Assembly: GCF_001411555.2 (NCBI RefSeq)
Contig: NC_049901.1
Span: 29,197,555-29,261,554, forward strand
Direction: 5' to 3'
From: Juglans regia
Taxonomy: Eukaryota > Streptophyta > Magnoliopsida > Fagales > Juglandaceae
Length of the DNA stretch: 64,000 bases
A program made the position numbers and the translations under genes. Under the pieces are notes generated by a model, which worked only from the letters and a program-made list of their open reading frames with translations, searched no databases and was not told the origin of the DNA. Of the stretch, positions 13,721 through 16,363 are shown piece by piece. Within the stretch, counting starts at the first letter, position 1, and each line of letters begins with the position of its first letter.

Positions 13721-14199
13721 TGTTAGAATCCTCTTGTATACGTTGTTGTAATAAGACGATAAGGGAAATGTAAGATTGCTGCTGCTATGTAAATGTTATT
13801 GTCATTGCTGTTGTAATGAGGAATATGGTTGAGATGAATTGCTATAGCTGCTATAATGGAACAGGGGGCACACAAGGTATTTGATAAAATTGTTACAAGA
13901 AAATATATTGCTACGAGAGTACTTCAAGAGCTCCCAAACCTCCTTACAGATTTCCTCAATAAAATTCGAGATGATCTCCACTCCTCACTCAACGTACATA
14001 AAAGGAATGTAGTCATAACAAACTCCTCTAATGACAATGCAACACGTGGAAAGTAAAGTAACAGAAAGCAACATTTTAACTGAAGGAAATAAGCATGAAA
14101 CGACAAGTGATTAATGGTAAAATGGTCTCCAAATGGCTGGTAGCTTCTGCCCTCCTTACTAATTTCCCAAACGGTGCATTTCGCATCAGGTTCCTAACA
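13721..14199 (-). mobile_element. LTR (479 bp) of gene-capturing retroelement
   Basis: Read on the minus strand it begins TGTTAGGAACC (at 14199) and ends GGATTCTAACA (at 13721), with matched TGTTAG...CTAACA termini. A polypurine tract lies immediately upstream at 14200-14220, so this is the 3' LTR of a minus-strand element whose interior lies to the right. A partner 5' LTR is not found before unrelated copia sequence begins near 16385. Confidence 0.72.
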
Positions 14200-14220
14200 A
14201 TCTCCTCTCCTTAAAGAACC
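14200..14220 (-). other. Polypurine tract of the gene-capturing element
   Basis: On the minus strand the sequence is TTCTTTAAGGAGAGGAGAT, abutting the LTR start TGTTAGG. A CCTTGAGGACAAGG block just before it is a frequent pre-tract motif in plant LTR elements. Confidence 0.65.
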
Positions 14221-14239
14221 TTGTCCTCAAGGTATGTGA

Positions 14240-14860
14240 AAAGGGCTTGAAGCCTTCCAACTACTTTCTTCTACCAATTTCTCAAGGACCTTAGTGATGG
14301 CCTGATTAACAAGCAACAAGTATTTGCAACCAAAATGAGACTTATGGATTTGAAAAGGACAGCACCAGAATGATAGTAATCTATCCCAAGCCCACCTCCC
14401 ATATTTAAGTAATCAACTTCAAAACCTTGAGCTCAGATTTCATTAATGTAGTTTACCATAATAATGGCTGCATCTCTGAATATGTCCACCTTAGTGATGG
14501 TGGATCCCAGATGGCAATGTGCTCCCACAAGTTTCAGCTCATCATGATGTGCCTTCACGGCATCCAAGAACCAATGCAGCATCACATTTCTAATCCCAAT
14601 TTTAGAGTTCTTATTCCCAGTAGCAACATAAGGATGGAGATGTGGTCCACGTTTGGGTTGGTCCGAAGTAAAACATTATCCATCTTGTCCGCTATTCTTG
14701 CAGCTGCTACAATATTCTCCAAGTCAAATTCACTATCAATATTAACAAAGACACCCTTTTTGGTAGCAAAAACTAAATCCTCTTTTCCATTCCCAAGATA
14801 CACTTTACTAAGATTTCTACAAAGAATCACTTCAGCAATCAAAAGCCCACTGGTCTTCAT
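14240..14860 (-). pseudogene. Diaminopimelate decarboxylase fragment (captured, broken)
   Basis: On the minus strand two frames together give about 200 residues of plant diaminopimelate decarboxylase, the PLP enzyme that makes lysine in plastids. Recognisable blocks in order: [38 protein letters not shown], then after a -1/+1 frameshift near 14640 [60 protein letters not shown] and VANTCCL. The His-bearing HCHLGS and glycine-rich GGGLGI segments are intact. The N-terminal lysine-binding part and the C-terminal half are missing, and internal deletions follow GAVL and CCL. No intron interrupts about 550 bp, although the family's genes are normally split, which suggests an mRNA origin. It is non-functional as an enzyme. 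Confidence 0.85.
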
Positions 14861-15105
14861 TTTTGGCTGGACCCTAAATGTAACTTTGGAAATCTGTTGA
14901 GTGAATCATCCATTATGTGAGGAAGACATCATTATCTGAAAAATGTTTATATATTTTTTCCATGTATTGGAGCAATAACTAGAACTCCTCTCCCCCTCAA
15001 AAGACCCTTGTCCACAAAGTTAATAGCGGTGGTGCAAACATTGACTACATTGCCTTTAAAGTTGAGAGGATCCTCTAAGATAGCTGCAAACATGGATTCT
15101 TCTCC
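14861..15105 (-). pseudogene. Unidentified open segment between captured fragments
   Basis: The minus-strand frame continues from the kinase fragment as EESMFAAILEDPLNF, then NVVNVCTTAINFVDKGLL and RGRGVLVIAPIHGKN before a stop at about 14949. It has normal amino-acid composition and is open, so it looks like real coding sequence from another gene, but I do not recognise the family. It is not CDPK EF-hand sequence. Confidence 0.4.
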
Positions 15106-15482
15106 TTCAATTAAAATTGCAGAATCCAGAGGTTTCTCCTTCAATCCATGGGTGACATAACACTTCTTGGGCAGAGATTCTTTTTGTTGGGTACCTCTCA
15201 AGCATCCTTCTCTTCAAATCTTCTGCACTTCCTGAAATGCTAGGCCATGGTGTAGGTCCAAAGTCTAATTTTCCTTGTAAAACTTGTCTACAGAATCCTG
15301 TTTCAGTTTCTGCCCATAAACGTGTTTTAGTTTCAACCCAAAAATGTGGAACTCCACTTAGTAAGATGTAAAGGATAACACCAGCACCCCATACCCCTAC
15401 TTCAGGTCCATAATGCCTTTTCAAAATCTCAAGTGCAACATAATAGGGACTTCCAACTTCATCATGAAAAGCTTCGCCCTTA
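15106..15482 (-). pseudogene. Calcium-dependent protein kinase (CDPK) fragment
   Basis: The minus strand encodes the C-terminal half of a CDPK kinase domain. The order is [19 protein letters not shown] (activation loop to P+1), [21 protein letters not shown] (subdomain IX; canonical [13 protein letters not shown] with D changed to G), [41 protein letters not shown], then after a frameshift KPLDSAIL from the start of the autoinhibitory junction. A tandem duplication of about 24 bp inside ([14 protein letters not shown]) is not in the family. The ATP site, catalytic HRD/DFG region and calmodulin-like EF hands are absent. It is intronless over about 370 bp and cannot be an active kinase. Confidence 0.87.
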
Positions 15483-15735
15483 CCATTCTCAGCACTCTCA
15501 ACCAACAACCCCAAGTTTGAACAAAGGTTTGCACTCATTTGCAAAATTTCACAAGCAGGAGGGATTTGGAATTTAATAGAAATGTGTTGGCTCTTAACGG
15601 CAACTATAAAGAGGGGATACAATTTTGATGGCAAGGGTGGTTTATAAAACCCATTTAACATTGGACCAGGTTTTGGCTCAATAGTATGAGAAACTTCCAT
15701 AGTAGTGCACCAGCCTTGCATGGATTATAACCCAA
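15483..15735 (-). pseudogene. Unidentified segment between kinase and ATPase fragments
   Basis: The minus-strand frame is open: [16 protein letters not shown], then [35 protein letters not shown] and [14 protein letters not shown]. It runs straight into the CDPK fragment. I cannot assign it to a family. It may be a fourth captured gene or element-specific sequence. Confidence 0.4.
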
Positions 15736-16005
15736 TTTTGTCACTACTGAGAGCGTCCATGCCTGCCATTTCCTCAATGGTAGTCACTCTCTTTATAATA
15801 TCATCCTGTTGGGAGAACTTGCGGAAGCCAACATCCATCGTGATAGAAAAAATAATATGGATGGCAATCAGAATTCCCACGATCAAGAGAACTAGCAAAT
15901 TTCCAATTCCATATGTATAAGTGCGATCATGTATTTGGTGGAAGACTATAACCTCAACAATAATCCCGATAGCAACCAAACAAATACAGAAATTACCACT
16001 TCTAA
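15736..16005 (-). pseudogene. Plasma-membrane H+-ATPase (P-type) fragment
   Basis: About 90 residues match a P3A proton pump from the fourth transmembrane region to the phosphorylation site. Blocks: GNFCICLVAIGIIVE (membrane helix), GIGNLLVLLIVGILIA (core of TM4, where the family has a PIAMP-like motif, here degraded), ITKR-like IIKRVTTIEEMAGMD, and the P-type signature, which appears as SSDKIG instead of CSDKTGTLT. The phosphorylated Asp is still visible but the motif is broken, and a stop follows. These pumps energise the plasma membrane. This piece lacks all other domains and is intronless. Confidence 0.87.
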
Positions 16006-16024
16006 TGGGCATTTTCACAAACAA

Positions 16025-16363
16025 CTGAGGCCCAAGTATAAGTACGTAGGTTGGAGAAAGTGTTCTTGATCAATGTGATCCAACCCACTTTAGACAAATA
16101 AAGACGGTTACATCCGTCCAATTTCCTTTTAATTTTCTCAATGATGCCATCCCAAATTGACTTTGCTTTATATATTGCTGCTAAGGGAAGACCCAAATAC
16201 TTCATAGGCAAAGATGCCATCCTACAGCTGAGAATATGCACAAATAACCCAACATCTTCCTCATCTCCCACTTAGCCCTGACACAGCCTCAAAGCATAGA
16301 GACATTTTAAATGGCATAAGTGCTCTGAGTTATCCTCATGGAAAAATTAGTGTGTCATCCACA
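16025..16363 (-). pseudogene. LINE (non-LTR) reverse transcriptase fragment
   Basis: The minus strand starts with a catalytic-box sequence FVDDTLIF (family FADDTLIF), followed by the C-terminal RT/thumb blocks MASLPMKYLGLPLAA, KSIWDGIIEKIKRKL, RLYLSKVGWITLIK and NTFSNLRTYT. A stop and small deletion break it near 16260. It joins the H+-ATPase fragment with no gap. A run of 19 or so A on the + strand (16362-16380) precedes it. Whether it was carried in with the neighbouring gene pieces or is an older insertion is unresolved. Confidence 0.8.

Follow-up and report, generated by a model that had tools for sequence, protein, structure and literature searches.

The 3' half of a walnut LTR retrotransposon belongs to a mosaic family carrying pieces of several host genes

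The window analysed here is a stretch of 64,000 nucleotides of Juglans regia (C1:29197555-29261554; genome assembly, 571 Mb). Judged by its sequence, positions 13721-16033 on the minus strand are the 3' half of a non-autonomous long terminal repeat (LTR) retrotransposon with pieces of several host genes. Its 3' LTR (13721-14199, minus strand, which is the element's sense strand) is 479 bp long, has TG..CA ends and matches LTRs on C14, C16 and C10 at 92-95%. It is adjoined by a polypurine tract (PPT) region (14200-14230, minus-strand TTGAGGACAAGGTTCTTTAAGGAGAGGAGAT), a context that recurs, with variants, 5' of the 3' LTR in 10/10 of the non-autonomous elements whose ends are compared below; both features had been named in a preliminary description of this DNA, and both stand. 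Beyond them lie, all on the minus strand, a fragment of diaminopimelate decarboxylase, intron-free and assembled from four exon pieces (14301-14795; parent gene L015), with a junction at 14490 that fits a GT-AG splice with 16/16 flanking bases; a junction segment (14796-14949), of which 14832-14949 is missing from the related loci L012-L014; and a segment (14950-15055) that, by DNA comparison between elements, travels with the dehydratase piece in L012, L013 and L014. These are followed by a dihydroxy-acid dehydratase fragment (15056-15122); a kinase-domain fragment of a calcium-dependent protein kinase (CDPK; 15155-15478; parent L017 on C8), composed of two exon pieces that lack the intron and have ∼20 extra bases at their junction; a module which the same kind of comparison found in element L022 and, in part, in L021 (15479-15578); module m2 (15587-15737), common to L019, L020, L038 and related elements; and a plasma-membrane H+-ATPase fragment (15731-16004), which has 83.9% identity to gene L028 on C11 and lies inside one exon of it.

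The identity of the gene pieces was established at both the protein and the DNA level. Among the minus-strand open pieces of the window, Pfam matched the decarboxylase (2.4e-8) and the kinase (Pkinase, 8.9e-19). The copy of the element on C14 has a 425-aa open frame that reads from the H+-ATPase ('ATPase 2, plasma membrane-type', chain residues 232-326, 7.6e-29) into the CDPK kinase domain (calcium-dependent protein kinase 3, 8.9e-41). DNA alignment to the genes placed the decarboxylase, CDPK and H+-ATPase pieces in sense orientation, as the preliminary description had claimed. That description had left two segments between the pieces without a name: 15587-15737 is module m2, present in other elements, and part of the other segment, 15056-15122, is, by sequence similarity, dihydroxy-acid dehydratase, a newly named piece of cargo (PDB match over 27 aa, E 8e-4; 86.6% over 67 bp to walnut gene L045). 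The DNA match was found at the permissive threshold of E 1, where an extra 28-bp match looks like chance; the same dehydratase exon is matched at 89% by the related element L014. The reading frame of the window copy is interrupted by stops and frameshifts, and the copy is a broken 3' half with a single LTR and no target-site duplication (TSD). The rest of the window, outside 13700-16040, showed no match to any of the 14 elements compared.

A copy with the same gene order between two 479-bp LTRs, as the preliminary description had anticipated, was found on C14. This element measures 3944 bp, is flanked by the TSD ACCAA, and its LTRs are 95.8% identical (Kimura two-parameter distance 0.043). A copy on C16 has the same order, with its LTRs ∼16 kb apart, ∼13 kb inserted and no clean duplication; a copy on C13 is rearranged and has no clean ends; and C10 holds a lone LTR with the TSD GAACT. 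Similarity of the window to the C14, C16 and C13 copies stops at 16033, and a sequence resembling a long interspersed nuclear element (LINE) starts exactly at 16034. Place counts from searches with the window piece, the LTR, the coil leader (see below) and the L014 dehydratase are lower bounds, the best 40 candidates having been scored. Twin 3' ends of the family also lie ∼12 kb apart on C3 (L025, 12.889 Mb; L026, 12.901 Mb); they comprise the PPT and part of the LTR (361 bp, 90%), and an LTR pair was not found inside either 10-kb stretch.

To compare the pieces with their sources, we aligned them to the walnut parent genes and searched by script for cuts within 12 bases, favouring GT-AG; a junction was called exact when a GT-AG cut existed with 13-16 of the 16 flanking bases matching. 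Over four captured genes (decarboxylase, CDPK, dehydratase and ATP synthase beta), 13 introns carried by the parents are absent from the elements, and eight of these junctions are exact. Three introns are absent from the decarboxylase of element L009 relative to L015 (two exact, the third inside a larger deletion) and two from the CDPK, where one junction is exact and ∼20 extra bases blur the other. L014, a related element, lacks five introns in the dehydratase (parent L045; three exact) and three in ATP synthase beta (parent L046; two exact). The window copy itself has one exact decarboxylase junction, at 14490; its remaining junctions examined are blurred. Since introns are absent at the positions where the parent genes have them, we infer that spliced RNA is the source of the cargo wherever a parent comparison is possible. 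The earlier claim that all pieces are intron-free thus holds for decarboxylase and CDPK against their parents and is uninformative for the H+-ATPase, which we rejected as an intron test because its source is a single uninterrupted exon of L028.

The window piece, used as a query, also retrieved other LTR elements with which it has only part of its sequence in common. Paired terminal repeats were found in L009, L011, L013, L014, L019, L020, L021, L022, L024, L037, L039 and L040. TSDs and LTRs were compared in ten non-autonomous elements; L011, L010/L031, L012, L023, L038 and L040 were left out because they had no clean ends, contained an insertion, yielded no LTR pair or had a repeat that reached beyond the LTR. 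In L040 (932-4573), a 730-bp terminal repeat extends beyond the LTR end, like a tandem LTR-internal-LTR arrangement. The ten elements are 2.6-4.4 kb long with LTRs of 382-512 bp. Their 5-bp TSD is perfect in seven and has one mismatch in L013 and L014; that of L021 has four mismatches as bounded, and one if the LTR end is moved by one base. A primer-binding site (PBS) of the TGGTAT type is present in nine of the ten (the full TGGTATCAGAGC in L037) and reads TGATAT in L039; we take it to be of the initiator-methionine tRNA type. The PPT context, GAGGACAAGGTTCTTT with variants, is similar in all ten. No Pfam match to gag, reverse transcriptase (RT), RNase H or integrase was obtained in 30 open frames, a subset of the element frames, from the window and nine family loci. 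The family thus has the paired TG..CA LTRs, 5-bp TSD, PBS and PPT of an LTR retrotransposon and lacks a gag/pol of its own in the frames scanned. Elements and LTRs of this length are too large for terminal-repeat retrotransposons in miniature (TRIMs).

Different elements carry different, partly overlapping sets of sense-strand gene pieces. Firm matches across the family comprise decarboxylase, CDPK, H+-ATPase, dehydratase (E 5.9e-73), ATP synthase beta (1.6e-12), enolase (8.8e-10), RGLG1/2 ligase (9.1e-8) and CDC20-type WD40 repeats (1.1e-29, under that model's curated cut-off; the general WD40 model is over its own). Matches to tubulin, PPR, cation efflux (0.018) and ARR1 (0.005) were weak and are not relied on.

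Several elements retain long chimeric open reading frames (ORFs). One 834-codon ORF, starting just 3' of the PBS, is intact in both L020 and L019; the two LTRs of L020 are identical, and L019 is 99.5% identical to L020 over the element. The longest open run in the L020 internal region is 843 codons, versus a maximum of 217 in 2000 mononucleotide shuffles. Other chimeric ORFs span 640 codons in L037, 425 in L009 and 371 in L022; since the search for matches used translations of open frames, some of the frame agreement between pieces is to be expected. The L020 ORF had no protein homologue at E 1e-3 among 7997 candidates scored (the query began one codon past the ATG), a result of little weight, as plant proteins are probably scarce in the collection. 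In L038, a block of ∼0.4 kb (4437-4855) breaks the match to the L020 cargo (L038 3405-4437 and 4855-5616); it may be an insertion in L038 or an intron-like loss in L020.

Between the cargo pieces of different elements recur the modules m1 (PLKxVFxPFDRG), m2 and m3 (DPGGIYFxCLCFLFPQPIF). Whole junctions are shared as well: L009 and L024 have a common junction of segment X with the H+-ATPase, after which their 3' parts diverge, and L009 and L014 share the order dehydratase-Z-decarboxylase, upstream of which L009 has CDPK. At both junctions for which two sources were at hand, microhomology was seen (TGGG at H+-ATPase|m2 and CTGCA at CDPK|dehydratase; no chance control). Such module sharing and microhomology are expected if RT switched templates by copy choice among packaged RNAs, although end joining could produce the same trace. 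Two copies of m1 flank the ATP synthase beta piece of L014 (3319-3426 and 3757-3876), as if they were a landing site for switching, and the same is seen in L012.

Two kinds of leader precede the cargo. A 134-residue query from the ubiquitin-like (UBL) leader gave 87 matches at 72 loci, 46 of them with E < 1e-26, when all 109 candidates were scored. Some of these loci, mainly weak ones, could be host genes or unrelated, and the 72 include twin or unplaced contigs (C9/C13, C7:37.95/38.00 Mb, C9805, C18588 and C19477). The twin regions C9:8.874-8.886 Mb and C13:20.264-20.276 Mb score identically for the L020 cargo and also for the UBL leader, which lies 9-10 kb from it; they reflect either a recent segmental duplication or an assembly in which this stretch appears twice. 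The second leader, coiled-coil-like by eye (L009, L037), occurs at at least 14 places among the best 40 candidates scored; one further, doubtful place lies downstream of the coil. Module m1 is found within 5 kb of eight UBL loci, and m3 within 5 kb of three. The union of UBL, m1, coil and m3 places amounts to 101 loci (100 without the doubtful one), not all of which need be LTR elements. The ubiquitin match of the UBL leader is weak (Pfam 8.5e-4, under the cut-off; RAD23, 0.0017), and the search that scored all 109 candidates singled out no host gene.

Comparison of the leaders between elements yielded low ratios of nonsynonymous to synonymous substitution rates (dN/dS). For the UBL leader (81-110 codons) the ratio was 0.21 for L020/L022, 0.26 for L020/L013 and 0.23 for L020/L014 (Fisher p 1.6e-5, 2.9e-5 and 5.8e-5 respectively), 0.30 for L022/L013 and 0.32 for L022/L014; for the coil leader it was 0.33 (63 codons, p 0.019). 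The regions of modules m2 and m3 gave 0.57-0.82, and the L020/L038 region 0.54. For the cargo of the window's own subfamily, the values relative to L009 were 1.34 (L010), 0.86 (L011) and 0.83 (window), and purifying selection was not seen in the comparisons of L010 and the window with L009 (Fisher p 0.45 and 0.30 respectively). L019 and L020 differ by seven synonymous and ten nonsynonymous changes (p 0.067), a hint only. These ratios indicate purifying selection on the UBL leader between elements and, less clearly, on the coil-like leader of the window's subfamily. Separate capture of leaders from diverged host paralogues could also yield low dN/dS, through selection in the host; the match between elements, however, runs from the PBS region into the leader, which speaks against such separate captures. 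That selection keeps the leaders suggests that they serve the element.

As to the source of the missing proteins, two Ty3/gypsy elements on C3, L041 and L042, have a PBS and PPT context like those of the family (L042: TTGTGGGCAAGGTGCTTTAAGGGG), and their LTRs have a block of 66-195 bp in common with those of the family, 71-88% identical. Domains for gag, RT, RNase H and the integrase end were found in L041, which sets it apart from the family; the frames of L042 look alike by eye. The family resembles these Ty3/gypsy elements in PBS, PPT and LTR; no RT was found in its own elements. On these shared signals, L041 and L042 are candidates for the helper lineage, and the family is probably moved by a Ty3/gypsy relative.

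Collectively, these data make it very likely that the element in the window, a non-autonomous LTR retrotransposon preserved as its 3' half, is a member of a J. regia mosaic family, in which pieces of host mRNAs were joined by template switching and mobilised in trans. RT copying packaged element RNA would switch, at short microhomologies, to spliced host mRNAs that had also been packaged, and return again; subsequent switches between element RNAs would shuffle the modules. The proteins would be supplied in trans by a Ty3/gypsy relative of the L041/L042 type. The window's own subfamily carries cargo that has decayed without sign of selection, whereas the leaders would be retained for the element's use. 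The preliminary description had proposed template switching of spliced transcripts into a non-autonomous LTR element, on the pattern of maize Bs1, and the C14 copy and the intron loss support this. Its class of mechanism was right and its LINE cargo wrong; it had seen one member of a family across which captures are repeated.

Helitrons have TC..CTRR ends and make no target duplication, and Pack-MULEs have terminal inverted repeats and a 9-bp duplication; both also capture gene fragments, at the DNA level. If the pieces had been taken as DNA by such an element, the LTR would be a coincidental neighbour. In maize, gene fragments have indeed been captured in greater number by Helitrons and other DNA transposons than by LTR elements (PMC2774510, consulted in part). 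However, Pack-MULEs hold exons together with introns, according to the accessible part of PMC4717578, and the walnut pieces have lost introns at splice junctions; full copies are bounded by LTRs with 5-bp TSDs (no dedicated Helitron-end scan was made), and PBS and PPT are in place. The C14, C6, C7, C2 and C8 elements already largely refute this kind of capture, which we find scarcely credible here. Processed pseudogenes made by LINE machinery might instead have landed serially in an LTR element that amplified afterwards; LINEs account for 7.14% of the walnut genome (PMC7238675, in the part available), and the window copy breaks off at a LINE-like piece. Against this, the junctions inspected have neither a poly(A) tail nor a duplication between adjoining pieces, the tested pieces are all in sense orientation, partly in one shared frame and joined at short microhomology, and the aligned fragments are internal exons. 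Independent insertions are accordingly very improbable.

Shuffling of DNA deserves more attention, in the form of an old capture of spliced retrocopies with mosaics arising later by ectopic recombination or gene conversion between copies. It would account for the X|H+-ATPase junction that L009 and L024 share despite their differing 3' parts, and microhomology fits end joining as well; yet it leaves the first capture of spliced exons unexplained, and several distinct mosaics have clean LTR pairs and TSDs. We consider it rather unlikely. Another doubt concerns the recurrent modules (UBL leader, coiled-coil-like leader, m1-m3), which could be remains of an old gag-like gene, with only the enzyme, kinase and similar pieces captured. 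The leaders lie directly 3' of the PBS, in the position of gag, the coil-like leader resembles by eye the gag start of L041/L042, and the ubiquitin match is as weak as stated above; on the other hand, the L020 leader matches ubiquitin-like chains over ∼75 residues, and no gag match was found in the leaders scanned (L020, L022, L014, L037 and L039; the L009 coil lay outside the scan). A gag origin of the modules is doubtful, though less so than DNA-level shuffling. A more far-reaching possibility, which we consider less likely than not, is that a host ubiquitin-like domain was captured once and is now the conserved N-terminal part of a trans-mobilised element protein, placed before changing cargo at up to ∼70 loci.

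Several observations weigh against the explanation by template switching and mobilisation in trans. The H+-ATPase piece offers no diagnostic intron, five of the 13 absent introns have blurred junctions, one decarboxylase intron was lost away from the splice sites, apparently by a deletion, and the intron comparison does not extend to the CDC20, RGLG and enolase pieces. The window copy lacks a second LTR and a TSD, and the C13 and C16 copies lack a clean TSD. No host parent is shown for m1-m3 or the UBL leader. Microhomology was seen at two junctions, and at each of them another element served as the reference for one side. The case for the helper consists of shared signals, and by eye its pol ends in a tail unlike the LEDKV-type tail seen in the family.

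Maize Bs1 is an LTR element of low copy number without a pol of its own. It contains transduced segments of three host genes, among them a plasma-membrane H+-ATPase, in a chimeric gene (2026 review, PMC13317346, available in part), and the captured segments are exons only (PMC4717578, likewise). The walnut elements also hold intron-free pieces of several nuclear genes, H+-ATPase among them, in one LTR element and fused in one open frame; the likeness noted is one of architecture. Unlike Bs1, the walnut family comprises dozens of loci with many gene sets, modules common to elements and a selected UBL leader. In the soybean TRIM GmaRetroS15, a short LTR element, three genes are represented by pieces, one of which spans five exons without introns (PMC4717578); the walnut elements differ in their length of 2.6-4.4 kb and in the long chimeric ORFs of some. 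Transduced sequences in LTR elements are usually in the gag-pol sense, according to the accessible part of PMC7264820. A survey of maize B73 listed 425 elements with gene fragments from at least 189 captures, none of which, under the survey's conditions and in the text available, had more than one standard nuclear gene (PMC2774510). Capture inside an LTR element is thus common to those single-fragment maize elements and the walnut elements, which in contrast hold several nuclear genes. The available text of a rice and sorghum survey does not mention multi-gene elements (PMC3726574). In the sources as far as accessible, the multi-gene plant LTR elements described are Bs1 and the one soybean TRIM. 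Among the titles that our literature search listed, none dealt with such a family in walnut; as most subscription journals lay outside its coverage, this is weak evidence of novelty. By analogy, the walnut family works like Bs1 at the scale of a family.

With dozens of loci, young members such as L020 with its identical LTRs, and common junctions, the order of captures and switches could be read directly, and retroelement-driven exon shuffling in plants would become measurable. The family opens the question of which mRNAs get packaged and whether selection keeps chimeric ORFs. Should the capture of a ubiquitin-like domain be borne out, the family would be a standing exon-shuffling system, in which frames of several hundred codons are kept because the fused protein helps the element, e.g. 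in packaging or in the host's ubiquitin system.

Outside the element, the LINE-like sequence occupies 16034-16778 on the minus strand and is 95-97% identical to a locus at C16:12.62 Mb (L027), relative to which it has a 1.6-kb internal deletion. Its open piece matched no family in a Pfam scan, and it is from its motifs that we assume it to encode a LINE RT. The preliminary description had counted this RT among the captured pieces; we rejected it as cargo, since it is missing from 3/3 other copies (C13, C14 and C16) and has separate matches elsewhere. By eye, the junction with the LTR element falls inside the RT coding sequence, so the break seems to stem from a deletion and not from the 3' end of a LINE. 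A run of A lies at 16363-16380. Elsewhere in the window, at 19700-19942, a 61-nt unit is present in four tandem copies with 89-92% identity to the reference copy.

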